Below, in pieces: positions 29,784 through 49,049 of a DNA stretch of 64,000 bases (positions are counted from its first letter, which is position 1; the number at the start of each line of letters is the position of its first letter). Below the pieces are notes generated by a model. That model was given only the letters and a program-made list of their open reading frames with translations, had not been told where the DNA came from and did not search any database. Both the position numbers and the translations under genes were made by a program. This DNA comes from Tsuneonella amylolytica (GTDB lineage Bacteria; Pseudomonadota; Alphaproteobacteria; Sphingomonadales; Sphingomonadaceae): assembly GCF_003626915.1 (NCBI RefSeq), contig NZ_CP032570.1, positions 2,169,001 through 2,233,000 on the forward strand, in the 5' to 3' direction.

Positions 29784-32363
<2,580 letters not shown>

Positions 32364-32438: not shown

Positions 32439-35400
32439 TTAGAAACCGACCGTCGCGTTCGCGAAGAACGTACGACCCGTGTAATCGAAGTTCGACGAGA
32501 GCGGCGCGTTGCCGATCGTGGTCACCGCGGCGGAAATCCGCGGCGGCTTCTTGTCGAACATGTTGCGGACACCGACGGTGAACTCGAACTTGTCGTTCAC
32601 GTCGAACTGAACCGAAGCGCTGTGCAGGAAATAATCCGGCACTTCGAGGATGTAGGAATCCCGGTACGCCTGGGCGAGATCCTCGTCCACCGTCCCGGTC
32701 GTCTCGTCGTACGCGAAGAAGTCGTACGTACCCGAGCTTCCGTCGATCCAAGTCAGACCGTAGCGGAGCAGCGCCCGGCCGACCTTGTAGGTCGCGTCGA
32801 AGCTACCCGTCCAATCCGGCGTCACGTAGGTGCCGTTGGCGTCGGTCAGGAACTCGTCCGGGAACAGGCGGCTCGACTGTTCGGTGTAGTGCGTGACGCT
32901 GGCATTCAGCGTCAGGCGGTTGTCGAACAGCAGGTCCGTCGCGAAGCGGCCGTTGAACTCGTAGCCCTTCACGATGTCGGTCGACAGGTTCACGTAGCCG
33001 TTGTTGACGGTGAGGCGGTTGTTCGCATCGCGCGTCTGCAGGCGGCAGAACCCTCCGGTCGGATCGAACGCGGTGTCACCGTAGCAACGGCTGAGGATGT
33101 TCCCCGCGCCGAGCTGCGACACACCGTTGTCGACCTTGATGTCGAAGTAGTCGAGCGCCAGGCTCAGGCTACCAACCGAAGCGGGCAGACGCGGCTGGAA
33201 GACCGCGCCGACCGACCAGTTGCGCGACGTTTCGGCTTCCAGACCGAACGACGCACCGCCGAGGCTGAAGGTCGTGATGCTGCTGTTCTGCTGGAACGTA
33301 GCGACATCGAGACCGATCGCGGCGCAGTTTGCGGCACGGATCTGCTGGTTCGGCGAGTAGGCAGCCGGGTTCGGCACGCCGTTCAGGATCGGGAAGTTGT
33401 CCGCATCGCACGGATCAGTGGCTGCACTCAGGAAGCCGCTGGTCGCACCCAGGAACTGCTCGGCGAGCGCCGGAGCGCGGTACGACGTGCCGTAGCTGGC
33501 CCGGAAGCCGAAGCCGCGGAACAGCTCCCATTCGCCCGCAACCTTGTACGTGAAGTCGCTGCCGTACGAATCGTAGTCGGTGTAGCGACCCGAAGCGTTG
33601 AGGCTCAGGTTCTGGAAGAACGGACGATCGCCGAGAAGCGGCAGGTAGAGTTCGGCGAACGCTTCCTTGACGCTGTCGGTGCCGCGGGTCGGCTGCGAGG
33701 TCGTGAGACCGTACAGGTTGCCGTTGATCGCGTTGATGTCCGGCGTGTCGTTGATCTTCTGCTTGCGGTACTCAAGACCCAGCGCGAGCTGGGCTTCGCC
33801 ACCGGGCAGCGTGAACAGCGGGCCGTCGACCGAGGCAATTGCCGTGGTTTCGCGGAACTGGTTGGTGCTCTGCGTGTCGGCAAGGATGTAGTCCCGGAAC
33901 GCCTGCGGCAGACGTCCGCCGATCGTGTCGGCGTTCAGGACCGGCGCCGGAACGCAGCTGGCGATCGACGCAGCGGCCGCACAGCTGAAGGTCCCGTTCG
34001 CGTTCTGGACGACATTCAGCGAGGTCGCGAGGCGATCGGTCAGGAACGACTGGATGTTGTTCTCGCCATCGGTCCACGACTTGCCGACGTAGACGTCGTA
34101 GCGCCAGCCGGGGAACGCGAAGTCGCCCCGGATGCCGCCGCCGGCCCGAACGTAATCGACCTTCTGGCTCGAATCGGTCAGGCCGAAGCCGACGAACGCA
34201 CGCGCGGCGATGATCTGGCCGCTCGAGGTTTCGTTCGGAGCGAGGAACGCGCCGTTGCGGAAGATCGCCGGAAGCAGCGGGCTACCGCGCAGATAGTCGA
34301 GCGAAAGCTGGCGATACAGCGGAGCCGACGACTTACGACGGGTAGCAAGCACTTCGCCGTAGATCTCGGCATTGCCGAGCGCCTGCAGGTCGTACGTGGC
34401 CGACAGGAAGCCGGTGTAGGTCTTGACCGGGCTGATCAGGAATTCCTGCTGGCTCGCCGGATCGAACGAATCGCGATCGTAGGTGCCGACGCCGAGGAAG
34501 CCGGGGGTCGCACCGCCTGCATTGCCAGCGACGGGAACGAAGCGGTTGAAGCGGCCGGGGAGACCCGACGTACGGCCGATACCGTCGCGCGTCGGAACGC
34601 CGAGCGTGTTGATCGTCACGCCGCCATTGTCGAGCGTGAAGCAGTTGCGGGGGTCACCGATCGGATACGGGTCGGCCGAACCGAATTCGCTGCCTTCACC
34701 GTCGAGGTAACCGGGGATCGGGCACGACGTGAAATCGACGTCGTTCAGGCGGAGGCCGTCGCGCTTGCGATATTCGACCGAGCCGATGAGGTTGAACCGG
34801 CCGGCGTCCACACCGAAGGTGGCGGCGACGCGGCGGTCGATGCCCGCACCGACTTCCGGCACGTTGACCTGTGCCTGGAGGCTGAGGCCACGCAGCTTCT
34901 GGTCGGTGATGATGTTGACGACGCCCGCGATCGCGTCCGAGCCGTAAACCGACGAAGCGCCGGCCTTGAGGATTTCGATGCGCTCGATGATGGCGGTCGG
35001 CAGGACGTTGAGGTCCGCCGAGAGAACCGCACCGCGAGTACCGGCCGGCGCCAGGCGGCGGCCGTTCAGCAGGATCAGCGTACGGGCCGGGCCGAGGCCA
35101 CGCAGGCCGAGCGTGTTGGCGCCGGTGCCGCCGTCGGTGACGAAGCCGCTGTAGTAGTTGTTGATCTGGCCCGCGCCGGCGGTGACTTCCGTGCTCTGCA
35201 GGGCGTCGGTCGCGCTGTTGAAGCCGGCCTGGGTGATCTCCTCGGCCGTCACGACGGTGATCGGCTCGACGGTCGAGTATTCGTCGCGGCGGATGCGCGA
35301 ACCGGTCACGACGATTGCGCCGCCGTTGTCGGCGGTCGAGCTGCCGTCGGCGCTCGAGATGGTCGTTGCCGGATCGCAGACGCCGTCGTTGTTCTCGTCC

Positions 35401-35522
35401 GGGCAATCCGGCGGATTGTCGCCTGCCGTCTGCGCGTAAGCGGGGGCCGCGAACGCACCGAATGCGATCGCCCCTGCGATGATGGTAGAGCCGCGCAAGG
35501 CGGTCTTGAAAGTCTTGGTCAC
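32439..35522 (-). CDS. TonB-dependent receptor
   Basis: 1027 residues: signal peptide cleaved after AAPAYA (residue 30), a short linker with a calcium-binding-like motif DENNDGVCD (42-50) and a Cys pair (40, 49), TonB box [11 protein letters not shown] (69-79), plug domain with [15 protein letters not shown] and [16 protein letters not shown], then a 22-strand barrel ending in the aromatic signature TVGF. It transports an unknown ligand, likely a glycan, peptide or siderophore, across the outer membrane using TonB energy. Its stop lies 25 bases from the clpB terminator. The sulfotransferase gene lies 191 bases upstream in the same direction. The octamer TGTTGCAG is at 35649-35656. Confidence 0.9.
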
Positions 35523-35713
35523 TGTTTAATGTCCCCCTAGGACGAGTCTCACCGGCGCGACCCGGCATTCAGCGGTCTTATCTAAGGCCGCAGCAAGTTC
35601 GTCATTGCAATGGGAACTAACGGGCAGTGACAACATCACCTGCAGGTTGTTGCAGAAAAGCCACTAGATAGACTGGATCCGCTTTTGCTCGCGATCGGAT
35701 GGGCGGTCGCCGT

Positions 35714-37168
35714 CTAGGACCGGTAGGTTCGTCCGAACGGAGCAAGCAGGTCGGCGTACCGGGACGATCGCCCTACGCCTGCCTTGTTGATCGGCTGCCG
35801 GACCTGCGCCGCGCTTGCGGTGATGACGGCGCGGTCGGCTTCGTGCGGGCGGAAACACGCCGGCTCCGGGGCAAGGTCGCAGTGCGCGAGGATGGCCGCG
35901 ATGGTATCTTCCGGCCGGTCGACGAGCGCAGAATAGTGGACTGTCAGGACCCTGCCTTCGAGGTGGCGCGCCCAGTGCGCGTGCAACGCGTCCTCCAGCA
36001 TGAAATGACGGGCGATCGCCGGTAGCGACCAGCTCCATTCCTGTCCTGACTGGAACCACGTGGTGTACGCCGAGAACGCGCAATCGAGCGGGTCGCGCCG
36101 CAGCCACACGATGGGGGCGGCCGGCAGGATCGCCGAGATGAGGCCGAGATCGCGCGAGGTGCCGAGCGACTTATCGATCAGCCGTCCGGGGCCGGGCACC
36201 GCCTGGTCGGCCAGATGATCGAACAGGGTCACGAGATCGTCGGCGCAATGGCAGTCGTCCGCCAGCCAGCGGCGATACCGGTCCGCGTCGCGGCCGCCCA
36301 CTTCCTGGACGAGGATCCGCATGAGCCCCAGCTCGCCGCCGCCCGCCACGGCCGAATGGCTGCCCAGGATCTGCTCGACGAGGGTCGTGCCCGATCGCGG
36401 CAGTCCGGTGACGAAGATTGGCGCGCGCCGGGCGGCGGCGGTCGTATTCGATGCCAGGGCTGCGATCGCTTCCGCCGTCCAGCCCGCCCGCGCGGCGGCG
36501 GCATCGGCGGCGGCGGCTGCGTGGTTGTACGGCCGCTCGGCCGCCATCAGGGCCGCGCCTTCGGAAAATGCTGCGGTGGCCTTTGCCGTCTCGCCCTCCG
36601 TATCGTGCGTTCGCCCTGTGGCGTACAGCCAGGCGGCCTGCTCCAACGGAGGTGCGGTGCGAATGGCGGCTGCCGCCTTGCGTAGCTGTGTAGAGTCCTC
36701 CGCTTCGAGCTTTCCGAGCATGGACAGCGCCAGCCACGACTGGCCGGACGCAGGATCGGCGGCGACGGCGCGGCGCAGCCACTCGCGCGCCTCGTCGAGC
36801 CGGCCGAGATTGGTCGCGGTCGTCCCGCGCGTATAGGCGTACGCGACCGGGGAAGGGAGGGTCGGGGGCAGCGCGTCCAGCATGGCGCGCGCCTCCTCGA
36901 GCCGGCCCGTCCGTGCATAAACCGCCACCCGCCGGAACGGCGAGGTCGGGTCGCCCGGCGCTTGCTCTGCCAGCAGGTCGGCGGCCTGCCGGGCAAGAGT
37001 GTATTCCCCGTTGTGCAGGAGGACCGACGCCACCGCGTTCCACGATCGGCCGAGCGGCGAACGGGCTGCGACGAGCGGGGCCGCGGCGCGGTTGACCGCC
37101 TCGCGCCCGCCCGCGGCGAGGGCCGACTGGAATTGCCGGAGCAGCAGCGTGTCGCGTTGGGTGACCAT
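35714..37168 (-). CDS. TPR-containing sulfotransferase
   Basis: 484 residues from ATG 37168 (GGAGA 10 bases upstream). The N-terminal half (about 10-210) is helical with several TPR-like units (for example AREWLRRAVAADPASGQSWLALSMLGKLE). The C-terminal half has the PAPS-dependent sulfotransferase signatures: 5'-phosphosulfate loop FVTGLPRSGTTLVEQIL (about residue 250) and 3'-phosphate motif LRRDPLDCAFSAY (about 355). The predicted location is the cytoplasm, as there is no signal. The TPR part suggests a protein or peptide acceptor. It lies between two TonB-dependent receptor genes of the same orientation. The longer frame upstream overlaps the terminator of the next receptor and is not used. 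Confidence 0.83.
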   Translation of the reverse strand: MVTQRDTLLLRQFQSALAAGGREAVNRAAAPLVAARSPLGRSWNAVASVLLHNGEYTLARQAADLLAEQAPGDPTSPFRRVAVYARTGRLEEARAMLDALPPTLPSPVAYAYTRGTTATNLGRLDEAREWLRRAVAADPASGQSWLALSMLGKLEAEDSTQLRKAAAAIRTAPPLEQAAWLYATGRTHDTEGETAKATAAFSEGAALMAAERPYNHAAAAADAAAARAGWTAEAIAALASNTTAAARRAPIFVTGLPRSGTTLVEQILGSHSAVAGGGELGLMRILVQEVGGRDADRYRRWLADDCHCADDLVTLFDHLADQAVPGPGRLIDKSLGTSRDLGLISAILPAAPIVWLRRDPLDCAFSAYTTWFQSGQEWSWSLPAIARHFMLEDALHAHWARHLEGRVLTVHYSALVDRPEDTIAAILAHCDLAPEPACFRPHEADRAVITASAAQVRQPINKAGVGRSSRYADLLAPFGRTYRS

Positions 37169-37217
37169 CCGACCGCTATCTCCACAAACGACGCGCCCGG
37201 CAACGCGGCGCAAAGAA

Positions 37218-37245
37218 AAAGGGGGCGGCTGCGGCCACCCCCTTT
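37218..37245 (-). terminator. Rho-independent terminator of the Oar-like receptor gene
   Basis: AAAGGGGG (37218-37225) pairs with CCCCCTTT (37238-37245), with an inner GGC/GCC pair. On the minus strand the stem is followed by TTTTTCTTTG. It lies 27 bases past the stop of the receptor gene at 37272. Confidence 0.88.
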
Positions 37246-37271
37246 CGAGTTCGCAATCGTGTCGATCGGGC

Positions 37272-40200
37272 TTAGCGGCCCGAACCGCCGAAGCGCAAGG
37301 TCGCGTTGAACCGGACCGAGCGCGGGGCCTGGTACGAGGTGACGCGGCCGTAGTTCGGGTTCGAATTCGGCGTGTAGTCGAAGTCGAAATCGCCGAACTC
37401 GTTGAAGTCGGTCTCGGCCTTCCAGTTGAAGACGTTGAACACGTCGACGCCGAACTGGATATCCCGGTTTTCCGCGAACGGAGTGAAGGCGAGCTTGAGG
37501 TCGACGCGCTTGTTCCAGTCGGATTCGAAGGCCGTACCACGCGGGATGAGGTAGCTGGTGCCGCCGTCGCTATTGGTGACCGCCGTACCGCCGTAGCCGT
37601 TCTGCGTGCAGTAGTACGAGGCTGCGCCGTAATCCGCCGCGAAGTTGCCCGCGTCGAAGTAGTTGCCGATGCAGCTGAACTTGCGCGGCGATTCCACGAG
37701 GGCGTTGACGCCGATGCCCAACCACTCCGTCGGCTTCATGTAGCCGTAGAGCTTGAAGGCATGACGACGGCCGTTGGCGAGGTCGCCGAAGGCACCGTCG
37801 AGGAAGCCGGGCTGGTCGAAGTCCTGGGTCAGGCCGGCGTCGGTCTGGTTGTTGTCGGACTTCACCGCGCCTTCGTAGTTCCCCCGCAGCTTGGTGTAGG
37901 TGTAGTTGAAGTTGAGGCCGTACAGTCCGTTGAAGCGCTTATCGAGCTCGAAGGTGATCGAGTCGTACTTGCGCGTGGCCTTGGGGTAACCGAGGTCTTC
38001 CGCCGCCAGCGTCACGACGTCGCACTGGCCCGCAATCGAGCAGTCGCCGTCGAGGCGCACCGTGACGTCGCTACCAGGGTTGAGCAGCACGTACTGGTGG
38101 AAGCCGGTGAACACCGAATCGCATCCCGCCACGCCGTTGGCATCGCAGTATGCGATAACCGCGGCGTCGATCGCCGCGTCTTCGAGCGTCTCACCCAGCT
38201 TGCGCTTGGTGTAATACAGGCTCGCCTTGAAGTCGCCGAAGCGGTGTTCGGCACCGATGCGCCATTCGTCCGTGTAGCTGGGCTTCAGCGTCGACGAGAT
38301 GAGCGTGTCGGTCGCACCGGCCAGGCCATCGCTGTAGACCGCGAGGCAGCGCTCGCCGCCGTTCGGACCCGCAGTCGGGCAGGTGGCGCTGCCCGAACGG
38401 ATGCCGCCCACCGGCACGTCGCCGGTATTGCTGAAGACCAGGCCGTCGGGGATGCCGTCGTCGTTGGCGTCGACGCCGCCGTTGATGCCGGTCGGGTACA
38501 GGAAGTCCTGCAGGTAGTAGAGTTCCGCGCCGCCAAGGCGGATGTTGGTGTTGGTCGCCACCGGCAGGTAATAGCGGCCGTAGAAGGCGTTGACCTTGGT
38601 ACGCCCGTCGCCGAACACGTCGAACGAGGCACCGAGACGGGGCGCCCACTGGTCGCCGGAATCGTAGAACAGGTTGCCTTCGACGTTGTAGTTCTTGAAC
38701 CGGTCGTTGCGCACGCCGAGCTGCAGGTTCACGCGCCCGTCGAGCAGGCTCCACGCATCCTGCAGGTAGAACGCCCGCTGGTCGGTGCGGAAGCCGCCGT
38801 TGTTCTGGTAGAAATAGCGCAGGATCCGGTTGTCGCGGATGTCGTAGCGATAGCCGGTGCCGTTGTAGGACGTTTCCTCGCCCGCGGTGAGCTTCTCGAG
38901 ATCGAAGCCGCCACGGAAGTGATGCTCGCCGAGGAAGTTGACGTAGACGTCGGCATCCGCGCGGTAGATTTCGCGCTTGTTCGTGTCGGTGTTGCGACCG
39001 GCAACGGTGCCGCCGACGACCCGGTTGCCGCCAATGCGGCTGAGGACGTAGGCCTGGTTCGGCGACGCGGTCGAGATCGACTTGTCGTTGTACTGGCCGT
39101 ACGAAGCCGACAGCGTCAGGAAGTCGGTGAACTGACCGGTGTAGGTGCCGATGAAGTTGTTGCCGCCGAACTCGTTGCGGAGACCGCCCTGGCTGCCTTC
39201 ACGCGCGAAGGTGGTCGGGTTGACGCCCGTGTAGCGGACGTTCTGGACCTGCTCGTCGCGGAAGTAGGTACCTTCCAGGCGGTGGCCGTCGGTGATGACG
39301 AAGTCGACCTTCGCGCCGAAGAACGGCGAGTTGCTGGTCGTCGTCGCGGCCCGGTTGCCGGCCACCGCATAGGTCGTCTGCTTGAAATAGCGCGGGTTGT
39401 AGAGCCCATAGACGAACAGGCGGTCGCGGATGATCGGACCCGACAGATAGAAGTTCGCGTCAAGCGATTCCGAATAGAACTTGCTGTTGAGGGCGTTGAT
39501 CGTGTCGCCCGTCGTGGTCGGATCGTTGTCGGAATCCACGAACGTGTTCGGCGCGCGCGAGCGCAGCGAATTGGGCGAGTAGTTCAGCACCGCCCCGGCC
39601 TGCACCTCGTTCGAACCCGACTTGGTCACGGCCGAGGTCACGCCGCCGAGCGCGCGGCCGTATTCGGCCTGGTAGCCGCCGGTCTTGACGTCGATGGTGC
39701 GGTAGAACTCGAACGGGATGATCGAACCGCCGAGGAAGTTGCGGAAGTCCGTGATGTTGAGGCCGTTCACGTAATACGCGTTCTCGGCCACGGTGGCGCC
39801 GCCGACCGAGGCAAAGTTGCCGAAGCCGCCGTCGCCCGAGGTGGTCTGCGGGGCAAGCAGGATCAGCGAGGTCTGGTCGCGGCCGACGGGAACGGTCACC
39901 GCGAGGTTTTCGACGTCGAGCGTGACGCCCGCCTGGGTGGCGGCGAAATCGTTGGTCGCGACGCGGCGGCCGACGACGACGATGCCCTGCGTATCGCCGA
40001 CCGGCACTTCGGTGCTGGTGCCGCCCGCGATGTAGCGCGAGGGGTTGTTCTGGCCGGCGATGACCTGGACGGTCGGATCGTTGACGACAGTCTGGCCGCC
40101 GGCGGTGATGTTCACGGTGTAGGTACCGGTCGGCAGGGTGTTGACGCGGAAGTTACCCGCCGCATCGGTCGTCGTCGTGTTGGTGAAGCCCTGTTCGTTC

Positions 40201-40403
40201 GAGGTGACGGTGACGGTCGCACCGCTCACCGGGGCGCCGGCCGAATCGACGACGGTGCCGGTCAGGTTGCCGCGGGTGTAGTCCTGCGCCGCGGCCGGAG
40301 CGGCGATCATGGCGGAGCCGGCGACGCCCGCGCCCAGCAGAGCCAGCGCTTGAAGAGCCGATCCGGCGGCGAGCCGGCACTTGTTGATCTTCATGGTATC
40401 CAT
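37272..40403 (-). CDS. TonB-dependent receptor, Oar-like, with carboxypeptidase-regulatory domain
   Basis: 1043 residues from ATG 40403 (GAGGGGG 9 bases upstream; a second ATG lies at 40394). Signal peptide to about residue 40 (APAAA), a carboxypeptidase regulatory-like beta domain (about 44-115, GTVVDSAGAPVSGATVTV), TonB box GIVVVGRRV (140-148), plug with YVNGLNITDFRNF, and a long barrel. A calcium-binding-like motif DANDDGIPDG lies near residue 645, in a likely extracellular loop, with several Cys-containing loops after it. This architecture is typical of Oar/SusC-like receptors that take up large ligands. The octamer TGTTGCAG and a TTGC-N6-GCAA palindrome lie about 170 bases upstream. The ligand is unknown. 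Confidence 0.9.
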   Translation of the reverse strand: MDTMKINKCRLAAGSALQALALLGAGVAGSAMIAAPAAAQDYTRGNLTGTVVDSAGAPVSGATVTVTSNEQGFTNTTTTDAAGNFRVNTLPTGTYTVNITAGGQTVVNDPTVQVIAGQNNPSRYIAGGTSTEVPVGDTQGIVVVGRRVATNDFAATQAGVTLDVENLAVTVPVGRDQTSLILLAPQTTSGDGGFGNFASVGGATVAENAYYVNGLNITDFRNFLGGSIIPFEFYRTIDVKTGGYQAEYGRALGGVTSAVTKSGSNEVQAGAVLNYSPNSLRSRAPNTFVDSDNDPTTTGDTINALNSKFYSESLDANFYLSGPIIRDRLFVYGLYNPRYFKQTTYAVAGNRAATTTSNSPFFGAKVDFVITDGHRLEGTYFRDEQVQNVRYTGVNPTTFAREGSQGGLRNEFGGNNFIGTYTGQFTDFLTLSASYGQYNDKSISTASPNQAYVLSRIGGNRVVGGTVAGRNTDTNKREIYRADADVYVNFLGEHHFRGGFDLEKLTAGEETSYNGTGYRYDIRDNRILRYFYQNNGGFRTDQRAFYLQDAWSLLDGRVNLQLGVRNDRFKNYNVEGNLFYDSGDQWAPRLGASFDVFGDGRTKVNAFYGRYYLPVATNTNIRLGGAELYYLQDFLYPTGINGGVDANDDGIPDGLVFSNTGDVPVGGIRSGSATCPTAGPNGGERCLAVYSDGLAGATDTLISSTLKPSYTDEWRIGAEHRFGDFKASLYYTKRKLGETLEDAAIDAAVIAYCDANGVAGCDSVFTGFHQYVLLNPGSDVTVRLDGDCSIAGQCDVVTLAAEDLGYPKATRKYDSITFELDKRFNGLYGLNFNYTYTKLRGNYEGAVKSDNNQTDAGLTQDFDQPGFLDGAFGDLANGRRHAFKLYGYMKPTEWLGIGVNALVESPRKFSCIGNYFDAGNFAADYGAASYYCTQNGYGGTAVTNSDGGTSYLIPRGTAFESDWNKRVDLKLAFTPFAENRDIQFGVDVFNVFNWKAETDFNEFGDFDFDYTPNSNPNYGRVTSYQAPRSVRFNATLRFGGSGR

Positions 40404-40780
40404 AGTGGGCAACCCCCTCGTTCGATCCCAGATGTGGTTCTGGACCACTTGCTTTGCCTCCCGCGAACAACAGCCCTGCAGACGTGGGAAGGCGCGATGG
40501 GTTTGACTAACGAAAGGGAGGCATATGCCAAACCGGCAATATGTCGCTTTCGTGAATAGCTTATGGGGTGTTGCAGTTTCGCAACGATTGGCGCTCTTGC
40601 GGTTTCGCCGGGCTACCTTTTCGGTGCGGCAGGCGCGTTGATCTTTGACGCGCCGCCACCGGGAAGTTAGCGATTGGCGACAAGCCTGAGGGGGCGGGGA
40701 CGAGCAGTCTTGTCAGTCGATCCGGCACGCGCCGCCGCGGCCCCCCTCCGGCGGTCCCAACAGGAAAGGGCGAACGAGCG
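40404..40780. other. 377-base intergenic region between receptor and secreted-protein gene
   Basis: Divergent control region for the receptor (minus, start 40403) and the secreted protein (plus, start 40781). The first 170 bases next to the receptor are clearly lower in GC than the genes (AT-rich near 40500-40570), as expected of promoters. A palindrome lies at 40568-40585. The half next to 40781 is GC-rich and ends in AGGAAAGGG, the ribosome site of that gene. No open frame with coding character is seen. Confidence 0.6.
40568..40585. promoter_or_regulatory. TTGC-N6-GCAA palindrome upstream of the Oar-like receptor
   Basis: GTTGC (40570-40574) and GCAAC (40581-40585) are inverted repeats with a 6-base spacer; the left flank GTGTTGC is identical to the left arm of the clpB-upstream palindrome. 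It also contains the octamer TGTTGCAG shared by the three receptor upstream regions. Operator function is inferred. Confidence 0.4.
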
Positions 40781-41329
40781 ATGACACGATCCCGGACGAT
40801 TTCTTGCATTGGCGCGGCCCTTGCCCTGTCGCTGTGCGCGCCTGCCGCGGCGGCCGAACCCGATCCGGCCGATGCGCCGCCGGCCCCGCTGTTCGAGGCG
40901 GTGACCGCGTGCCGCGCGGTGGCCGACACCGCCGCGCGCCTTGCGTGTTACGACCGCACCGTCGCAGCGCTCGCGGCGGCGGAGGCCGGGCGGGAGGTCG
41001 TGGTCCTCGACCGGGCGGGCATGCGCAAGACGCGCGAGCGCCTGTTCGGGATCAACATGCCGCAGGTGCGGCTGTTCGGCCGGTCGGATACGGTCGAAGA
41101 CGCCGATGTCGTCCAGCAGATCTCGAGCACGATCAAGGCGATGGCGATCGCGCCCGACGGGCTGCCGGTGTTCCTGCTGGCGGACGGCGGACGTTGGAAG
41201 CAGACCGACGGGCGCAACGTGTTCCCCCGCGTGGGTCACACGATCACGATCAAGCACGGCATCCTCAACAAGTACACCGCGTCGATCAACGGCCGGGCGG
41301 GTGTGCGCGTGATCCGGCTGCTCGACTGA
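40781..41329 (+). CDS. Secreted hypothetical protein
   Basis: 182 residues with a signal peptide (cleavage near APAAAA, residue 24). The mature part starts with a short Pro/Ala linker, then a helical region with two cysteines (TACRAVADTAARLACYDRTVAAL), a pattern seen in several alphaproteobacterial periplasmic proteins. It ends in a beta-rich domain (about 95-182: PVFLLADGGRWKQTDG, GHTITIKHGILNKYTASING). No catalytic motif is recognised. It is divergent from the Oar-like receptor and convergent with a second small secreted protein 6 bases away. The function is unknown. Confidence 0.65.
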   Translation: MTRSRTISCIGAALALSLCAPAAAAEPDPADAPPAPLFEAVTACRAVADTAARLACYDRTVAALAAAEAGREVVVLDRAGMRKTRERLFGINMPQVRLFGRSDTVEDADVVQQISSTIKAMAIAPDGLPVFLLADGGRWKQTDGRNVFPRVGHTITIKHGILNKYTASINGRAGVRVIRLLD

Positions 41330-41335
41330 GCGGGC

Positions 41336-41629
41336 TCAGTTGCTGTTGACGGCCTTGCCCTTGTAGGCGTCCATCGCGTCGCGCGCGTCCTGGTTGCCGA
41401 TGTCCTGCGCCTTGCGCCACTGGGCGTTGGTGCGGCAGGACACCTCGCGCGCCACGAGCGAGCCCACCTTCTCGGTCTTCACGCAGCGGATGTATTCGGC
41501 ATCCCCGCGCTGGAGGACGGCGTTGTGGGCACGGATTTCCTGATGGCTCATCGCCTTGACCTGTTCCGGCGAGAGCGAGAGGGTCGTTGCCTGGGCGGCG
41601 ATGAGAAGAGGTAGCAGCACAGTGGTCAT
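41336..41629 (-). CDS. Small secreted hypothetical protein
   Basis: 97 residues with a short hydrophobic N-terminus (VLLPLLIAAQA) acting as a signal peptide. The mature part holds two cysteines about 18 residues apart (IRCVKTEKVGSLVAREVSC), followed by RTNAQWRKAQD, a segment I recall from other small sphingomonad secreted proteins. A single disulfide is likely. The ATG at 41629 has GGGAAA upstream. The function is unknown. It lies convergent to the gene ending at 41329, inside the receptor-sulfotransferase block. Confidence 0.6.
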   Translation of the reverse strand: MTTVLLPLLIAAQATTLSLSPEQVKAMSHQEIRAHNAVLQRGDAEYIRCVKTEKVGSLVAREVSCRTNAQWRKAQDIGNQDARDAMDAYKGKAVNSN

Positions 41630-41714
41630 GAAACGTTTCCCGTATCCCTTGTGCGCGAAGAGTAAAACGCGCGGGGCTTCGGCACAAGCGTTCTGCGAGA
41701 GCGAAGGCTAGGGC

Positions 41715-42737
41715 ATGGCAACGACCGAGGCCATCCTCGCCGACCCGGAATGGCTTGCCCACCGCCATGTAGAGGATCGCGATACGGTCCGTTTCCGCCA
41801 TGGGCCGCGCGCGCGCCACGCCGCCGTGCCGTTCCTGGTCGACGACTATCTCGGCGCTGCGGAGGCAACGCACGACATCCCGCTCGCCGAGTGCCTGTCC
41901 GCCGTCCCGCGGCGACCGCTGCACTTCGTCTTCCATTCGGCATTCTGCGGATCGACGATGCTGGCGCGCGCGCTCGACCGGCCCGGGGCCGCGATGGCGC
42001 TGAGCGAGCCGGTCATCCTCAACGACGTGGTCGGATTCCGCCGCCGGGGCGCCCCTGCCGACGCGGTGGCGCGCCTCGCGGACGGCGCCTTGCGCCTGCT
42101 CGCACGGCCGTTCGGCGAGGGCGAGGCGGTCGTGGTCAAGCCGTCGAACGTCATCAATCCGCTCGCCGAGCTGCTGCTGGCGCTTGCTCCCGGTTCGCGA
42201 GGGGTGTTCCTGTTCGCTCCGCTCGAGACCTTTCTCGTGTCGGTCGCGCGCAAGGGACTGCCGTGCCGCCTGTGGGCGCGCGAACTGGCGGAAGGATACC
42301 TCACCGACGCCTTTCTCCAGCCGCTCGGGTTTGCCGCCGGCGATCTCTTTCGCCAGAGCGACCTCCAGGTCGCCGCCACCGGCTGGCTCGCCCAGCACCG
42401 GTTCTTCCTCGCCTTGCGCGAAAAGGTGGGGGCTGGCCGCCTCGCGTTCCTCGATTCCGAAACTCTGACAGGAGAGCCGGACCGCGCCGTGGGGGCGGCC
42501 GCGCGGCATTTCGGCATCGCCATGCCCGCCGGTTCCGTGGCGGGCGGGGAGGCTTTCAACCGCCACAGCAAGTCGGGCAAACCCTACACCCCGCAGGACC
42601 GGGCATCCGACTACGCCGCCGTCCGCGCCGCGCACGGGGAGGAGATCGCGATGGTGACGACGTGGGCGGGGCGGGTGGCCGAAACGCTGGGAATCGGCCT
42701 CGACCCGCCGGGCCGCCTCGCTCAGGCGGGATCGTAG
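41715..42737 (+). CDS. Sulfotransferase-like P-loop protein
   Basis: 340 residues, no signal peptide. The region LHFVFHSAFCGSTMLARAL (residues 69-87) is a P-loop of the type found in PAPS-dependent sulfotransferases but with HSAFCGST in place of the usual RSGTT, including Cys78. Later parts (VVVKPSNVIN, VFLFAPLETFLVSVARKG) resemble the family's central beta-sheet and 3'-phosphate region. It could sulfate or phosphorylate an unknown acceptor. The last 16 bases overlap the convergent TPR-sulfotransferase gene. The call is moderate because the classical RxGTT and 3'-PB motifs are not both intact. Confidence 0.6.
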   Translation: MATTEAILADPEWLAHRHVEDRDTVRFRHGPRARHAAVPFLVDDYLGAAEATHDIPLAECLSAVPRRPLHFVFHSAFCGSTMLARALDRPGAAMALSEPVILNDVVGFRRRGAPADAVARLADGALRLLARPFGEGEAVVVKPSNVINPLAELLLALAPGSRGVFLFAPLETFLVSVARKGLPCRLWARELAEGYLTDAFLQPLGFAAGDLFRQSDLQVAATGWLAQHRFFLALREKVGAGRLAFLDSETLTGEPDRAVGAAARHFGIAMPAGSVAGGEAFNRHSKSGKPYTPQDRASDYAAVRAAHGEEIAMVTTWAGRVAETLGIGLDPPGRLAQAGS

Positions 42738-44308
42738 CCGAAGCGTTCGATCCAAGGGTCCAGGATGGGCAGGACCGGCTCGAAATACGCGGCATAGGGG
42801 CGCCACTGGCCCGACCCGTCGTAAAGGCCCTGGCGAACCTGCCCGGCGCTGGCGGTGGACACGCCGCGCCGCTTGGCCGTCATGTCGAACCGGCGCACAT
42901 CCTCGGACCAGTCGAGCCCGGCGAAGGCGCACAGCGCGCGGGTCTCGGTTTCGAAATCACGCACCACGGACTCGTAGCGGACGACGTGGGCGGCGACGGG
43001 CAGGCGATCGAGCGCCCTATCGGTCAGTGTCATCATCGCATCGTAATGCCGCGCCGCCCGCTCCAGCGTGACGTATTCGAGCGTGCCGCTCGTCATCGCG
43101 AACAGCGTGCGGAAACAGCTCCACACGACATCGCGCGGATCGCGCCGCATGACAAGCACGCGCGCGTCGGGAAACATGCGCGCGATGAAAGGGAGGCGGG
43201 TGGCCTTCAGCGGGTCCATGTCGACGAACGTCGCGGACGCGGGCGCGATGCCGCCGCTGCGGGCGACGGCCCAGTAGGCGGCCTGGAGTTCGCAGACGCT
43301 TTCGCCGTCTAGCTGCGCGAACGACTGCAACCCGTTCGCGATCGCCGCCCGGTCGCCGGTCAGGAAGGCCTCGTCCGCATCGCGGAAGGTCGGCCATTCC
43401 TCCAGCGCCGCGACACCGGGGAGCGAGGCGAGGATGTTCTCGACGAGCGTGGTGCCAGACCGGGGATAGCCGATGAGGAAGAGATGCCGGCCCGCCCGTG
43501 CGGGCGTCCGGTCGGGAACGGCGGCGGCTGCGGGGGGAGTGACGCCATCAGTGGCCAGCGCCCCCGAGATCGCCTCGACGAAGGCGGTGTGCCCCGGCAT
43601 CCCGGCGTCCTGCGGAGCGTTGACCGCCGCGAAGTCCGCCTTCGACAGCGAGAACGCGCGATAGGCCTCGTCCGGCCGGCCGAGTTTCTCGAAGATGCGG
43701 CCGAGGGTGTTCGCCGCGACCGACCGCTGCTGCCCGGTCTGCGCCGTTTCGACAACGGGCTGCACTGCGGCGAGAGCCCCTGCCGGATCGCCGGTCTCGA
43801 GCAGGGCGGAGCCCAACGCCGAGACGGCGACGAGGTTCGCCGGATCGAGCGCGAGCGCGCGGTTCGCAGCCTCGATGGCGGAGGCGGTGTCTCCGTCGCG
43901 CGCGGCCTGGCTCGCCACACCGGCGTGTGCCGCCGCATTGCCGGGGGCGAGGGCGGCGGCGCGGGCGAAGCTGTCGCGCGCGGCCGTCGACGAACCGCCC
44001 GCCGCCAGGATCGCGCCGCGCTCCAGCCAGGCGTCGGGATAATCGGGGGCGATGGCGATGGCCGCGTCGCACAGCCGGACCGCTTCCGACAGCCGACCCT
44101 GCTGGCGGCGGCGGATGGCAACGCCGGTGAGGATGCCGGGATCGCCGGGAGCCGCCAAGTGTGCCCGATCGAGCAGCGCATCGCCGCCGGCCTCGTCGCC
44201 CGCATCCACCCGGCCCAGTCCGGCGACGAGGAGGTCGTACGGATCGGTACTGCCGGCGGCGAGCGCCCGTTCGGCATCCTGCGCGGCGAGGGAGAGGGAG
44301 ATGGTCAT
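42722..44308 (-). CDS. TPR-containing sulfotransferase
   Basis: 528 residues, cytoplasmic. The N-terminal 230 residues contain several TPR units (for example PGILTGVAIRRRQQGRLSEAVRLCDAAIAIAPDYPDAWLERGAI). The C-terminal sulfotransferase domain has the 5'-PSB loop FLIGYPRSGTTLVENIL (about 277-293) and the 3'-PB motif MRRDPRDVVWSCF (about 385-397). It has the same architecture as the gene at 35714-37168 but with diverged sequence, so the two are paralogues. It ends convergent to the sulfotransferase-like gene (16-base overlap) and begins 124 bases after the terminator of the receptor gene at 44483. The acceptor is unknown. Confidence 0.83.
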   Translation of the reverse strand: MTISLSLAAQDAERALAAGSTDPYDLLVAGLGRVDAGDEAGGDALLDRAHLAAPGDPGILTGVAIRRRQQGRLSEAVRLCDAAIAIAPDYPDAWLERGAILAAGGSSTAARDSFARAAALAPGNAAAHAGVASQAARDGDTASAIEAANRALALDPANLVAVSALGSALLETGDPAGALAAVQPVVETAQTGQQRSVAANTLGRIFEKLGRPDEAYRAFSLSKADFAAVNAPQDAGMPGHTAFVEAISGALATDGVTPPAAAAVPDRTPARAGRHLFLIGYPRSGTTLVENILASLPGVAALEEWPTFRDADEAFLTGDRAAIANGLQSFAQLDGESVCELQAAYWAVARSGGIAPASATFVDMDPLKATRLPFIARMFPDARVLVMRRDPRDVVWSCFRTLFAMTSGTLEYVTLERAARHYDAMMTLTDRALDRLPVAAHVVRYESVVRDFETETRALCAFAGLDWSEDVRRFDMTAKRRGVSTASAGQVRQGLYDGSGQWRPYAAYFEPVLPILDPWIERFGYDPA

Positions 44309-44431
44309 GCGCCGGATGGCTTCCCTGCGCGTGCCACCAAGTCAAGCCGCCTTCGCGCAAGGTAACGTCCCGAAGGAAGGTTGCAGCCCTTTCCCGAACG
44401 CCTCGGCGTGTCTTCGGCGCACAAAGAAAAA

Positions 44432-44459
44432 ACGGGGCGGGCATTGCTGCCCGCCCCGT
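44432..44459 (-). terminator. Rho-independent terminator of the third receptor gene in the block
   Basis: ACGGGGCGGGC (44432-44442) pairs with GCCCGCCCCGT (44449-44459) around ATTGCT. On the minus strand it is followed by TTTTTTCTTTG. It lies 24 bases past the receptor stop and resembles the terminator at 37218 in both layout and its AAAGAAAAA flank. Confidence 0.9.
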
Positions 44460-44482
44460 CAGAAGTTCGGTTTGCGATCCGA

Positions 44483-47400
44483 TCAGAAGCGGATGCGCGC
44501 GCCCACCGCGTAACGGCGACCCAGCGCGTCGTAGGTCGACGGGTAGGTGTTGCCGCTGTTGTAGGTGGTGGCACCGGCCGTGTTGCCCACGATCGGCGGC
44601 TGCTTGTCGAGCAGGTTCTGCACGGCGAACGTGAAGGTGAACTCGTCGCTCACGTTCCAGCGCAGGGTGGCATCGAAGATGTCGTAGGCATCGATCCTGT
44701 TGAAATCGACCTGCTTGCCGGCGACCGCACCCGTGCTCGCGGGCAGGGTGCCCGAGAAGAACGGACCCTGGTCGATGATGTCCTGCGGCTCGTGCTCGGT
44801 CGAGCCGATGTGACGCCACAGGAGCGACAGGTCGAAATCGTCGACCGTGAAGGTGTTGCGCAGCGACCACTGCCACTTGGGCTGGATCGAGCCGGTGAAC
44901 GAGCAGTTGACCGAGTAGTAGCGCGTGCATTCACGGTTGAGCGAGTTCGGATCGGCGACGTTCGCGTTGAACTTCGAGTTCATCGTGTAGTTGCCGACGA
45001 AGTTGATCGCCCACCCGGCGAAGCCGAGATCGGTGTTGTAGTTGGCGATCAGGTCGAAGCCGTCGGTGAACAGGCGGCCCTGGTTGTTCAGGTTCGCGAT
45101 GAGACCGAGGGTGGTCGAAGGATCGCCGTCGAGTCCGCCGGTAACCGGGTTACGCTGGATCGCCAGACAGTTCGGATCGGTCGTGCTGGCCGCCGAGAGG
45201 CTGCCATAGCACGCCGCCAGGATGTCGCCCGGGAGCGACGCCCCGATGACGTCCTTCACCTTGATGTTGTAGTAGTCGAGCGACATGTTGAAGCGCGGCA
45301 GGAAGTCGGGCTGGAACACCACGCCAGCGGTCCACGTCGTGGCCTTTTCCGGCTGCAGGTTGATGTTGCCGCCCTGCGTCAGGTTGGCCTGGCCGGCCGT
45401 CGGGTTGGCGATCGAACCGATCGTGCCCGCCGGAGCGCCCTGCGCGATGCAGACCGCGCGAAGGTTGGCGTTGGCCACCGGAGCGGTACCCGCACAGGGG
45501 TCGACGCCCAGGTTGGTGAGGCCCGTGGTCACCGGCGTGAACAGTTCGCCGATGTTAGGGGCGCGCACCGCGCGCGAGTAGTTGCCGCGCACCTTGAGGC
45601 CCGCGACCGGACCCAGCGTGCCGCCGACCTTGTAGGTCCACGAGTTGTTCGACGGACCGCCGTCGATCTCCTGGTGCGAGTAGCGCGCACCGGCCTCGAG
45701 CGTCGCCAGGTCGGCGATGATCGGAACGATGAGCTCGCCGTAGCCTTCGTAGGTCTTGTAGCCGCCGATGATGTCGGGGGCAGCGCCGCCGGCACCGCCG
45801 AGTTCACCCGGGGTCTTGGCGAGGACGTCCGACGACTGTTCGGCGCCGTAGTCGCGCATTTCGGCACCGAGGGCGAAGCCGATCGGTTCGGCCGCGCCGA
45901 AGCCGAAGCCGAGATCGCCCGAGATCAGCGCGCGGACCTGCCCGAGCGTGGTCTTGACCTGCGACGTGCTGTTGGCGGTGAGGAACGCGGCCTGTGCGGG
46001 CGTGATCGTCCCGGCCGGGCCGAACACGTTGATCGGGATACAGCCGTTCGACGGATCCTGACAGGTCGTGCCGTTGTTGGTCAGCAGGCCCTGACGGAAG
46101 CGCGAGGTCAGCGTGTAGTTGCGGATCGTCTGGACCTTGTCCGATTCGCCGTACGACGCGCTGAGGTCGAAACCGATCGTCGGGGTCAGATCGCCGCGGA
46201 TGCCGAAGCGATAGTCGAAGACGGTGGTGTCGTAGTCGCTGATGCGCGGGCCGACTTCGACCGCACGGCGGGCGAGGTTGGTCGTGATCGTGCGGTAGTT
46301 CGGGTCGTCCGGACCGGTGGCCGCTGCGGCGGCGGCGCACTGCGCCGGCGTGAGCAGCGGGGTGTAGGCGATCTGGCCCGAAACAGTCTCGCCGGCGGCG
46401 TTCACGCCGGTGACGTTCGGGGCAACGTTGAGGGCGCAGAACTGGGCGCGCAGGGCGGCCGGAAGCAGCGGGTTGTTGAGGTTGATCGTGACCGGGCTGT
46501 TGAACGAACCCGACGGTGCGATGATGGTCGACACCGAGTTCTTCGAGAACAGGCCACGCGTATACAGCTCGAGACCGTCGCTGATCTCGTAGTTCGCCTG
46601 CGCGAAGATGTTGTAGCGCTCGAACGGAGTCTGGAAGACGTTGAACGGGTTGAAGTTGAACGTCTGGAACGTGCCGACCGCCTGGCCGGCGGCGTTGATC
46701 TGACGCACACCGCCGTTGGCGGCACCGCCGGTCTGCAGCGCGAGAATCGGAACGCCCGCGGCGGTGGTGCCGGTCTGGACGTACTGCGACAGGGTGTTGG
46801 GCGCACCGTTGGTCAGCGGGCGGGTGCCGGTGAAGCGCGAAGGCACCGTGGTGCCCGAGCCGCTGCCGCCGCCGGTGAACGAGCTGATCTGGTTCTGCGA
46901 GAAGTCGCGCGCACCCTGGTAGACCGGGTCCGACTTCTGGTAGCCGATGCTCAGCACGGCGTTACCGCGACCGTCGTCGAAGTTCGCGCCCATGGTGAGG
47001 TCGGCGCGCCAGTACTTGCCGTCGCCGCGCTCGGTCAGCTGCTGGCCGAGGTTGAGGTCGACGCCCGAGAAGTCCTTGCGGGTGACGAAGTTGATGACGC
47101 CGGTGATGGCGTCCGCGCCGTAGGTCGTCACGGCGGCGCCGGTGAGGGCGTCGACGCGGCTGACGAGGGCCAGCGGAATGTTGTTGAGGTCGACGCGGCC
47201 CGAGAAGTCGACGGGCACGATGCGGTTGCCGTCGAGCAGCACGATGTTGCGGTTCGAGCCGAGGCCGCGAAGGTCGGCGTACGAGGAACCGCCGTTGCCG
47301 TTGTTGACCGCCGAACCGATGTTGGCGACCACACCCGGGATTTCGCGCAGGACCTCTTCGGCGAGGTTCGACTGCTTCAGTTCGATCTGGTCGGACGTGG

Positions 47401-47590
47401 TGACGTTGACCGGGTTCGACTGGACGAGGTTCGGGTTCTGGATCAGCGAGCCGGTGACGACGATCTCTTCGGCGTCGACGGTGTCGGTCGCGGTGGTCTG
47501 CGCGTCCTGCGCGAAGGCCGGCGTCGCGGCGATGGCGATGCCCAGCGCGATCGGAGCGGCACCCGCCTTGAGAAGCGAAATAGACTTCAT
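44483..47590 (-). CDS. TonB-dependent receptor
   Basis: 1035 residues from ATG 47590. Signal peptide cleaved after ATPAFA (residue 27), TonB box EEIVVTGSLI (41-50), plug domain with RGLGSNRNIVLLDGNRIVP and TTYGADAITGVINFVTRK, then a barrel ending in the aromatic RYAVGARIRF. A GGGSGSGT linker (near residue 245) looks like a flexible loop. The receptor belongs to the same broad group as the one at 32439 but is not a close copy. It is followed by a strong terminator. The octamer CTGCAACA (reverse of TGTTGCAG) lies about 110 bases upstream, at 47699-47706. The ligand is unknown. Confidence 0.9.
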   Translation of the reverse strand: MKSISLLKAGAAPIALGIAIAATPAFAQDAQTTATDTVDAEEIVVTGSLIQNPNLVQSNPVNVTTSDQIELKQSNLAEEVLREIPGVVANIGSAVNNGNGGSSYADLRGLGSNRNIVLLDGNRIVPVDFSGRVDLNNIPLALVSRVDALTGAAVTTYGADAITGVINFVTRKDFSGVDLNLGQQLTERGDGKYWRADLTMGANFDDGRGNAVLSIGYQKSDPVYQGARDFSQNQISSFTGGGSGSGTTVPSRFTGTRPLTNGAPNTLSQYVQTGTTAAGVPILALQTGGAANGGVRQINAAGQAVGTFQTFNFNPFNVFQTPFERYNIFAQANYEISDGLELYTRGLFSKNSVSTIIAPSGSFNSPVTINLNNPLLPAALRAQFCALNVAPNVTGVNAAGETVSGQIAYTPLLTPAQCAAAAAATGPDDPNYRTITTNLARRAVEVGPRISDYDTTVFDYRFGIRGDLTPTIGFDLSASYGESDKVQTIRNYTLTSRFRQGLLTNNGTTCQDPSNGCIPINVFGPAGTITPAQAAFLTANSTSQVKTTLGQVRALISGDLGFGFGAAEPIGFALGAEMRDYGAEQSSDVLAKTPGELGGAGGAAPDIIGGYKTYEGYGELIVPIIADLATLEAGARYSHQEIDGGPSNNSWTYKVGGTLGPVAGLKVRGNYSRAVRAPNIGELFTPVTTGLTNLGVDPCAGTAPVANANLRAVCIAQGAPAGTIGSIANPTAGQANLTQGGNINLQPEKATTWTAGVVFQPDFLPRFNMSLDYYNIKVKDVIGASLPGDILAACYGSLSAASTTDPNCLAIQRNPVTGGLDGDPSTTLGLIANLNNQGRLFTDGFDLIANYNTDLGFAGWAINFVGNYTMNSKFNANVADPNSLNRECTRYYSVNCSFTGSIQPKWQWSLRNTFTVDDFDLSLLWRHIGSTEHEPQDIIDQGPFFSGTLPASTGAVAGKQVDFNRIDAYDIFDATLRWNVSDEFTFTFAVQNLLDKQPPIVGNTAGATTYNSGNTYPSTYDALGRRYAVGARIRF

Positions 47591-47876: not shown

Positions 47877-49049
47877 ATGGGCACGGCTTATATCGTCGAC
47901 GCGGTGCGGACCGCCGGGGGCCGGCGCGGCGGGCGCCTCGCCGGGGTGCACCCGGTCGATCTCGCCGCGCAGACGCTCGACGCGCTCGTCCAGCGGACCG
48001 GCATGGACCCGGCGCGTATTGACGACGTGGTGATGGGCTGCGTGACGCAGGGCGGCGAGCAGGCGATGCAGGTCGGCCGGATGGCGGTGCTCGCCAGCAA
48101 GGTGCTGCCGCAGTCGGTCCCCGCGGTCACCATCGACCGGCAGTGCGGATCGAGCCAGCAGGCGATCCAGTTCGCAGCGCAAGCGGTGATGAGCGGGACG
48201 CAGGACGCGGTGATCGCGGCGGGCGTGGAAAGCATGACCCGGGTGCCCATGGGCACCAACCTCACGCTTCACATGAAGGAGGGCATGGGCCACTACAAAT
48301 CGCCCGGCCTGGAAGAGAAATACCCCGGGATCATGTGGTCGCAGTTCGCCGGCGCGCAGATGATCGCCGACAAGTGGGACATGACGAAGGAGGCGATCGA
48401 CCGCTTCGCGCTCCACAGCCACGAGAAGGCCGCCGCCGCGACGAAAGCCGGCGCGTTCGCGCGCGAAATCGTGCCGATCACCGTCGAGACGCCCGAGGGG
48501 CCGGTCGAGCACACGACCGACGAGGGCATCCGCTACGACGCGACGCTCGAAAGCATCGCTTCGGTCAAGCTGCTGCAGGAAGGCGGCAAGCTGACCGCCG
48601 CGAGCTCCAGCCAGATCTGCGACGGGGCCAGCGCGGCGCTGATCGTCAGCGAGACGGCCTTGAAGGAACTCGGCCTCACCCCCCGCGCTCGCATCCACAC
48701 GCTGACGGTGACCGCCGGCGACCCGGTGATCATGCTGGAGGAACCGCTGTTCGCCACCGACAAGGCGCTGGCCCGCGCCGGCCTTACGATGGGCGACATC
48801 GACCTCTACGAGGTGAACGAGGCGTTCGCCCCGGTGCCGATGGCCTGGCTCGCGCACACCGGTGCGGACCCGGACAAGCTCAACGTCAACGGCGGCGCGA
48901 TCGCATTGGGTCACCCGCTCGGCGCGAGCGGAACGAAGCTGATGGCGACCCTGCTGAACGCGCTCCACGCGCGCGGCGGCAAGTACGGCCTCCAGACCAT
49001 GTGCGAGGGCGGCGGCGTCGCCAACGTGACGATTATCGAGGCTGTGTAA
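47877..49049 (+). CDS. Acetyl-CoA acyltransferase (thiolase)
   Basis: 390 residues from ATG 47877. Catalytic residues of thiolases are present: Cys90 in DRQCGSSQQA, His346 in GGAIALGHPLGASG, and Cys376 in MCEGGG. It cleaves 3-ketoacyl-CoA with CoA, or condenses acetyl-CoA, in the cytoplasm. Length and motifs fit the fadA/acetyl-CoA acetyltransferase group; substrate chain length cannot be told. It is followed by a palindromic repeat and then an SDR dehydrogenase and a crotonase, which together could run part of beta-oxidation. The frame upstream of 47877 is not supported by a ribosome site. Confidence 0.92.
   Translation: MGTAYIVDAVRTAGGRRGGRLAGVHPVDLAAQTLDALVQRTGMDPARIDDVVMGCVTQGGEQAMQVGRMAVLASKVLPQSVPAVTIDRQCGSSQQAIQFAAQAVMSGTQDAVIAAGVESMTRVPMGTNLTLHMKEGMGHYKSPGLEEKYPGIMWSQFAGAQMIADKWDMTKEAIDRFALHSHEKAAAATKAGAFAREIVPITVETPEGPVEHTTDEGIRYDATLESIASVKLLQEGGKLTAASSSQICDGASAALIVSETALKELGLTPRARIHTLTVTAGDPVIMLEEPLFATDKALARAGLTMGDIDLYEVNEAFAPVPMAWLAHTGADPDKLNVNGGAIALGHPLGASGTKLMATLLNALHARGGKYGLQTMCEGGGVANVTIIEAV

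Follow-up and report, generated by a model that had tools for sequence, protein, structure and literature searches.

What brings three TonB-dependent receptors and three sulfotransferase-type genes together within about 15 kb of a sphingomonad chromosome? The question is raised by a locus of Tsuneonella amylolytica that lies in the window analysed here, a stretch of 64,000 nucleotides (positions 2169001-2233000 of contig NZ_CP032570.1) from a single-contig genome of 2.79 Mb. Eight genes lie between clpB and a thiolase-like gene in this window, and the list of receptors and sulfotransferases drawn up in the original prediction, coordinates included, was confirmed by Pfam scans, gene calls and a structural model of the most divergent protein. 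We observed that islands of receptors and protein-modifying enzymes recur across Sphingomonadales. We see an even chance that the island is a sphingomonad system in which TonB-dependent receptors are joined by cytoplasmic enzymes, most of them carrying tetratricopeptide repeats (TPRs), that would modify a polypeptide exported to the envelope.

Sulfotransferases and receptors between clpB and the thiolase-like gene

The island and its two borders comprise the following features.

29784..32363, plus strand: clpB, conserved island border (Clp_N, AAA and ClpB_D2 Pfam matches; same position in many relatives)
32439..35522, minus strand: TonB-dependent receptor a, SR type (PF07715, 3.9e-20; PF00593, 9.8e-28)
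35714..37168, minus strand: ST1, TPR-sulfotransferase of the Oar-linked clade (PF13469, 1.2e-37, scanned as 35714-37129)
37272..40403, minus strand: receptor b, Oar-like TonB-dependent receptor (CarboxypepD_reg PF13620, 4.2e-17; Plug, 27.6 bits)
40781..41329, plus strand: sm1, probable secreted or periplasmic protein (open reading frame; weak VasI match, 0.0055)
41336..41629, minus strand: sm2, two-Cys protein of 97 aa (no Pfam match; model a hairpin plus helix, predicted local distance difference test (pLDDT) 83)
41715..42737, plus strand: STx, predicted sulfotransferase family with the fold of tyrosylprotein sulfotransferases (TPSTs) (no Pfam match; fold from a model)
42722..44308, minus strand: ST3, TPR-sulfotransferase whose clade has Met in place of TPST Lys158 (PF13469, 6.1e-33)
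44483..47590, minus strand: receptor c, TonB-dependent, of the VTG[ST]LIxNP type usual in STx loci (PF07715, 4.7e-19; PF00593, 4.3e-36)
47877..49049, plus strand: thiolase-like gene, the other island border (named from its sequence)

Receptor a, ST1 and receptor b form a minus-strand run with intergenic gaps of ~100-190 bp, followed by sm1 (plus), sm2 (minus), STx (plus), ST3 (minus) and receptor c (minus). The 3' ends of ST3 and STx overlap by 16 bp, and receptor c is separated from ST3 by 174 bp. Starts at 37168 for ST1 and 47590 for receptor c fit better than the listed open reading frame starts at 37540 and 47773, which are too long; sm1 starts at 40781 in the open reading frame list and at 40901 according to the gene caller. 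Receptors a and c matched both the Plug and the TonB barrel models of Pfam. Receptor b is of the Oar type, with an N-terminal CarboxypepD_reg domain and a Plug above the cut-off of 23.9 bits, and the Pfam barrel model gave no match to it.

ST1 and ST3 matched Sulfotransfer_3 (PF13469) with 130.7 and 115.3 bits, respectively, above the curated cut-off of 27. The best sequence relative of the ST3 catalytic part in the PDB is TPST1 (2.2e-8, with a match spanning 252 of 262 residues); other TPSTs were also found, and the next-best relatives have values of 0.0015 and weaker. A passage of PMC5562738 gives the catalytic residues of TPST2 as Arg78, Glu99, Lys158 and Ser285. ST1 keeps the Arg, Glu and Lys positions in our alignment, in which identical rows were kept, the positions being placed via the ST3-TPST1 alignment and Ser285 left uncounted. 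ST3 keeps Arg and Glu and has Met at the Lys158 position. Judged by sequence, ST1 and ST3 are TPST-like sulfotransferases that would use 3'-phosphoadenosine 5'-phosphosulfate (PAPS). Adenosine 5'-phosphosulfate (APS) kinase was found in 55 of 59 genomes, this one included, so PAPS can probably be made in these genomes; this is weak support, and the kinase, common in bacteria, was also found in 11 of 14 control genomes.

Met at the Lys158 position is carried by 38 of the 69 rows of the sulfotransferase tree, all within one clade (Shimodaira-Hasegawa-like approximate likelihood ratio test, SH-aLRT, 96). The tree holds 69 domains of 81 matches, two short rows and repeated or identical rows having been dropped, and the Lys/Met column was excluded from it. 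All but one of the Met-clade rows (37/38) sit in STx loci, compared with 3/31 of the Lys rows, and the lone Met row outside STx loci comes from a fragmented assembly with STx on another contig. The linkage has one origin on the tree, and an independent-pairs test has no power. As the Met clade is a single event, these data indicate that the clade lives with STx, and not that the loss of Lys is causally linked to the partner.

The STx protein of the window matched no Pfam family, PF13469 included; that family was matched by 4 of 48 STx family members, at E 0.01 or weaker, and an NCBIfam scan gave no match near a cut-off. Identification by a PDB sequence search yielded only weak, unrelated matches (best E 0.27), and a fold search was needed. 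An AlphaFold model built with 48 sequences has a pLDDT of 92.5 and a predicted template modelling (pTM) score of 0.91. Human TPSTs occupied ranks 1-9 when this model was searched against the PDB with Foldseek (E 5.7e-5 to 3.2e-4), and TPSTs filled the first seven rows of a VIA-align comparison (Z 15.6-14.6), TPST1 with Z 15.6 and a root-mean-square deviation of 3.6 over 230 aligned residues. Below them came polyketide-synthase sulfotransferase domains (13.9-13.7), heparan sulfotransferases (~12) and SULTs (~10.5). By fold, STx is thus predicted to be a TPST-type sulfotransferase, and its earlier description as a divergent sulfotransferase-like P-loop protein was right as far as the fold of the model goes. 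Together, the sequence of ST3 and the modelled fold of STx bear out the sulfotransferase identity proposed originally, and both resemble protein sulfotransferases.

Glu98, Lys142 and Ser176 are invariant in the STx family. Taking equivalence from spacing rather than superposition, Glu98 lies 21 residues past the place of TPST Arg78, which is the spacing of Glu99 in TPST2; the place of the P-loop Arg itself is held by Phe77 in the window protein and by Phe or Tyr in the family, and Ala168 replaces the Arg that precedes the Ser of the 3'-phosphate motif by eight residues. Some islands have two STx genes (L070, L071, L072, L247 and L258, L denoting the loci of our samples), and the second STx of L070, L071 and L072 is much diverged, with 31-36% identity to the window protein.

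Recurrence of the island in Sphingomonadales

We assessed conservation in overlapping samples. In a set of 119 genomes from the same family, an ST3 relative was found at 1e-20 in 64, a count that also takes in TPR-sulfotransferases from other clades; an STx relative was found in 42 (1e-10) and clpB in 115 (1e-250). A clpB-anchored set comprises ~20 kb 3' of clpB, taken regardless of content, from the 60 genomes with the ClpB most like that of the window, three contig-end cases being skipped. An STx-anchored set comprises 80 of 295 relatives found with the STx alignment, with titles naming Novosphingobium, Sphingopyxis, Sphingobium, Sphingorhabdus, Sphingomonas and relatives, and four naming only Pseudomonadota or Proteobacteria. 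Some genomes are present twice among L066-L185, and the contigs of L077 and L225 are equal in length. Sulfotransferases were counted with catalytic-domain profiles; a full-length profile also caught TPR-hydroxylases through their TPRs.

A receptor is present in 50 of the 60 clpB-anchored loci. Modifying enzymes, methyltransferases excluded, occur in 33 of these 50 and in none of the 10 receptor-free loci (Fisher p 1.1e-4, ignoring common descent). Enzymes of the 60 loci comprise TPR-sulfotransferases (15 loci), TPR-carrying Asp/Asn hydroxylases of the AspH type (7), TPR-2-oxoglutarate (2OG) oxygenases (21), STx (6), PF13661-type oxygenases (15) and methyltransferases (12), and each type is always accompanied by a receptor. 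Taken singly, sulfotransferases gave p 0.054, and AspH and STx p 0.6 (Fisher, likewise ignoring common descent). One representative of each other modifier was assigned to Pfam: PF05118 (AspH) with TPR, PF13759 with TPR, PF13661, PF13759 alone, and methyltransferase. The system first outlined was therefore right in its sulfotransferases and incomplete, in that several other TPR or 2OG enzymes alternate with them.

The STx loci are more uniform in layout. AspH is present in 76 of the 80, sm2 in 76, a TonB-dependent receptor in 75, sm1 in 40 and a sulfotransferase in 29, in the near-constant order sm2 (minus, 1-4 copies), TPR-AspH (minus), STx (plus), where present the sulfotransferase (minus), and receptor (minus). 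clpB lies beside 38 and xseA beside 51 of the 80 stretches, many of which are cut by contig ends; five lack a receptor, two of them on short contigs and three as full loci. The window has the order sm2, STx, ST3 and receptor c with AspH absent, and 85 bp only between sm2 and STx. Its genome has one PF05118 hydroxylase, at 1500261-1500734, far from the island, and none in the island.

We also compared receptor and sulfotransferase positions genome-wide. The window genome has 28 Plug matches in 2.79 Mb (~one per 100 kb), three of them in this 15 kb, and 5 PF13469 genes, two of them in the island. In this genome and four others, a Plug is no more than 6 kb away for 11 of 25 PF13469 genes, compared with 2.9 expected, and none of 5000 random placements reached the observed number. 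These figures agree with the earlier view that the repeated pairing is unlikely to be chance, and the absence of conserved pairing in relatives, which was to refute that prediction, was not what we found. Outside the island, the association was weak (5/19 within 6 kb compared with 2.2 expected, p 0.057; 2/19 within 4 kb compared with 1.5 expected), and therefore sulfotransferases in general are not receptor partners.

Of the 69 rows of the sulfotransferase tree, 54 have a receptor within 2 kb. On these 54 rows the class of the nearest receptor changes 5 times, compared with a mean of 23.7 and a minimum of 19 in 200 shuffles; with SL-class rows removed, it changes 3 times on 26 rows, compared with 11.8 and a minimum of 9 in 500 shuffles. 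Sulfotransferase clades thus largely keep their own receptor class, which shared descent of neighbours explains in part. An Oar receptor adjoins all seven sulfotransferases of the ST1 clade, and in L145 and L148 Oar and a sulfotransferase are the only island genes seen. In a further clade of six sulfotransferases, four (L121, L122, L123 and L125) are paired with a different receptor class at places away from clpB, and two (L120 and L124) lack any receptor within 2 kb. Most receptors of STx loci have VTG[ST]LIxNP after the signal region, and the Leu of this motif is present in 64 of 70 receptors of the STx set compared with 4 of 74 of the clpB set.

The site beside clpB might instead be a tolerant insertion spot, where receptors and enzymes are found together by descent and have no joint function. 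Recurrent borders, variable gene content and the weak association outside the island would suit such a spot. It accounts poorly for the near-fixed order of STx loci, for sulfotransferase and receptor pairs at other loci (L121, L122, L123 and L125) and for the congruence of sulfotransferase clade and receptor class, and we consider it very unlikely.

Candidate clients of the modifying enzymes

The reading that we favour is that the enzymes modify a polypeptide before export. By eye, the enzymes have no signal peptide and so would act in the cytoplasm, where the TPR part may bind an unfolded client. ST1, ST3 or STx would sulfate this client and, in relatives, the TPR-hydroxylase would hydroxylate it too; the modified client would then leave via Sec to the periplasm, the outer membrane or the outside and work with the neighbouring receptor, whose role may be import, export or mere display. 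For STx and the hydroxylase we take sm2 as the most likely client; for ST1 it would be the receptor or the cargo of the receptor, since an Oar receptor and a sulfotransferase are alone in two loci. The earlier proposal, in which sulfation goes with ligand uptake, is supported in part: the conserved pairing and the likeness to protein sulfotransferases are in its favour, and the coupling itself is a conjecture.

Both small proteins have signal-peptide-like starts by eye and contain Cys. sm1, often divergent from the receptor in relatives, goes with receptors (28 of 50 receptor-bearing clpB loci compared with none of 10 lacking one). In the sm2 family alignment, Cys49, Gly56, Ser57, Cys65, Thr67 and Trp71 are invariant, and Asn79 and Arg83 nearly so. 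A Pfam scan gave no match for the window sm2 and, in 3 of 52 family members, unconvincing matches with a best E of 0.0041; a Foldseek search with the modelled hairpin-helix core found no fold match (best E 0.72). In STx loci, AspH is immediately followed by sm2 in the same orientation in 74 of 76 cases: a single copy stands there in 43, two in 13, three in 14 and four in 4, hence 2-4 copies in 31. This link is invisible in the window because the hydroxylase gene is absent there. In the 60 clpB loci, sm2 is associated with sulfotransferases (8/13 with sm2 compared with 7/47 without, p 0.0017) and with AspH (4/13 compared with 3/47, p 0.034), and no clear association was seen with STx (3/13 compared with 3/47, p 0.11) or TPR-2OG oxygenases (p 0.35). 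With a profile built from the window and STx loci, at least 28 of the 39 strongest and at least 42 of the 69 listed sm2 matches in the 119 genomes are at most 21 kb from clpB or 3 kb from STx or a sulfotransferase, these being lower bounds since the partners were part of the matches (26 STx and 23 sulfotransferase places). A 10-genome search had placed sm2 almost exclusively in the island, which the 119-genome search corrected. We regard sm2 as a candidate client of STx and AspH, tentatively and with some doubt.

A more specific proposal is that sm2 represents a new class of secreted microproteins, made on ribosomes and then modified twice, being hydroxylated by TPR-AspH and sulfated by STx with ST3 as its partner, possibly in a complementing heterodimer, and that it serves as dedicated cargo or co-ligand of the VTG[ST]LIxNP receptors. 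The losses in the two enzymes are complementary, ST3 lacking the catalytic Lys and having the Arg, and STx lacking the Arg and having the Lys. We think this proposal unlikely.

Alternatively, receptors may be the only targets of the sulfotransferases: sulfation of their loops or N-terminal part ahead of export would tune the recognition of ligands or phages, and sm2 would be no client at all. The receptor is the commonest partner of the sulfotransferases and in L145 and L148 the only one, its class is tracked by sulfotransferase clade, and Tyr content is slightly higher in sulfotransferase-linked receptors of all four classes. However, the two large classes show no excess of acidic-tyrosine sites beside a sulfotransferase, and sulfation of receptors alone would leave the sm2 arrays beside AspH unexplained; we judge it rather unlikely. 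A CPDxNxDGxCD-like stretch near the receptor N-terminus was rejected as an enzyme target because loci in which no enzyme was listed have similar stretches too (L126, L128, L138 and L161). Receptor a has a calcium-loop-like two-Cys motif near its N-terminus (residues ~38-51), and relatives have receptors with similar stretches whether or not the locus holds modifying enzymes.

Several observations weigh against modification of an exported client as the function of the island. The acidic-tyrosine sites per receptor, counted with some loci entered twice and identical sequences kept, were 0.31 with a sulfotransferase (29 receptors) compared with 0.38 without (55) in the SL class, and 0.06 (31) compared with 0.52 (77) in the SR class. 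The two small classes were slightly richer beside a sulfotransferase (Oar, 1.17 in 6 receptors compared with 1.0 in 1; TBDT2, 1.25 in 4 compared with 0.71 in 7). Taken together, the site and Tyr data neither clearly favour nor exclude a plain TPST-like sulfation of receptors. For the earlier suggestion that a receptor is sulfated, the small classes, with few receptors each, lean slightly towards it and the large ones do not. Tyr is not invariant in sm2; 11 of its 39 strongest matches lie elsewhere, L170 and L180 have it with none of the listed enzymes, and it was not seen in the Oar and sulfotransferase loci L145 and L148. With the TPST Lys missing from ST3 and the P-loop Arg missing from STx, either enzyme may be without activity or have another target, and the Foldseek TM scores of STx to TPSTs are moderate (0.38-0.49 on the query). 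Finally, the full STx loci L224, L225 and L227 have no receptor on ~21 kb, the pairing outside the island is weak, and within a single bacterial order the effect of neighbourhood cannot be separated from that of descent.

Comparison with known systems

To our knowledge, very few systems of protein sulfation are known in bacteria, RaxST among them. Animal TPST1 and TPST2 are the nearest solved relatives of the ST3 catalytic part in sequence and of STx in modelled fold, with their Arg, Glu and Lys kept in ST1. By contrast, the enzymes described here are bacterial and have no signal peptide by eye, ST1 and ST3 are fused to TPRs, the ST3 clade has Met for Lys, and STx has Phe or Tyr for the P-loop Arg. 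In Xanthomonas, the sulfotransferase RaxST acts on RaxX, a small secreted protein encoded beside it, according to a passage of PMC6637879. The arrangement here resembles this description in pairing a sulfotransferase with an adjacent small secreted protein; it differs in the Sec-like signal on the small protein, the presence of a receptor, the hydroxylase in relatives and the TPRs on ST1 and ST3. In Myxococcus, the TonB-dependent transporter Oar is needed for secreting a protein, PopC (part of PMC6434023), whereas the Oar-like receptor here adjoins a sulfotransferase. Sphingomonad TonB-dependent receptors in general belong to the same superfamily, and a 2020 study of them (PMC7142613) contained no words beginning with sulfotransferase or hydroxylase in a word search.

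The enzymes might also make or modify a ligand for uptake by the receptor, either a small molecule or a peptide, of a metallophore-like or lasso-like kind. TonB-dependent receptors normally import. A table of PMC10040529 numbers clusters with sulfotransferase and aspartyl beta-hydroxylase of Pontixanthobacter and Allopontixanthobacter among, and next to, lasso-peptide genes, from which we infer gene adjacency; this part of the source would fit peptide substrates. Against an imported ligand, no peptide-ligase, nonribosomal peptide synthetase or other assembly genes were noticed among the recurrent island gene clusters, of which no profile search was made, and the closest PDB relatives are protein sulfotransferases. 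We consider it quite unlikely.

No description of islands of receptors, TPR-sulfotransferases and AspH was found in the literature searched, which consisted of top-ranked results, with subscription journals mostly outside. The island is real, conserved and, as far as this literature goes, apparently undescribed, and modification of an exported client is a plausible mechanism for it. If this is true, bacterial protein sulfation and hydroxylation become directly testable in harmless sphingomonads with candidate substrates next door, orphan receptors gain functions, and a sulfotransferase family missed by Pfam is added.

Two further arrangements were observed. In L121, L122, L124 and L125, a second receptor class (~800 aa) lies near a TPR-sulfotransferase, and metallo-beta-lactamase-fold proteins with a signal-like start are encoded close by. 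A second type of island between clpB and thiolase, consisting of a receptor, an S-adenosylmethionine (SAM) methyltransferase, a TPR-2OG oxygenase (PF13759) and often a PF13661 oxygenase, was seen in L099, L151, L153, L154, L157, L158, L163, L164, L165 and L184.

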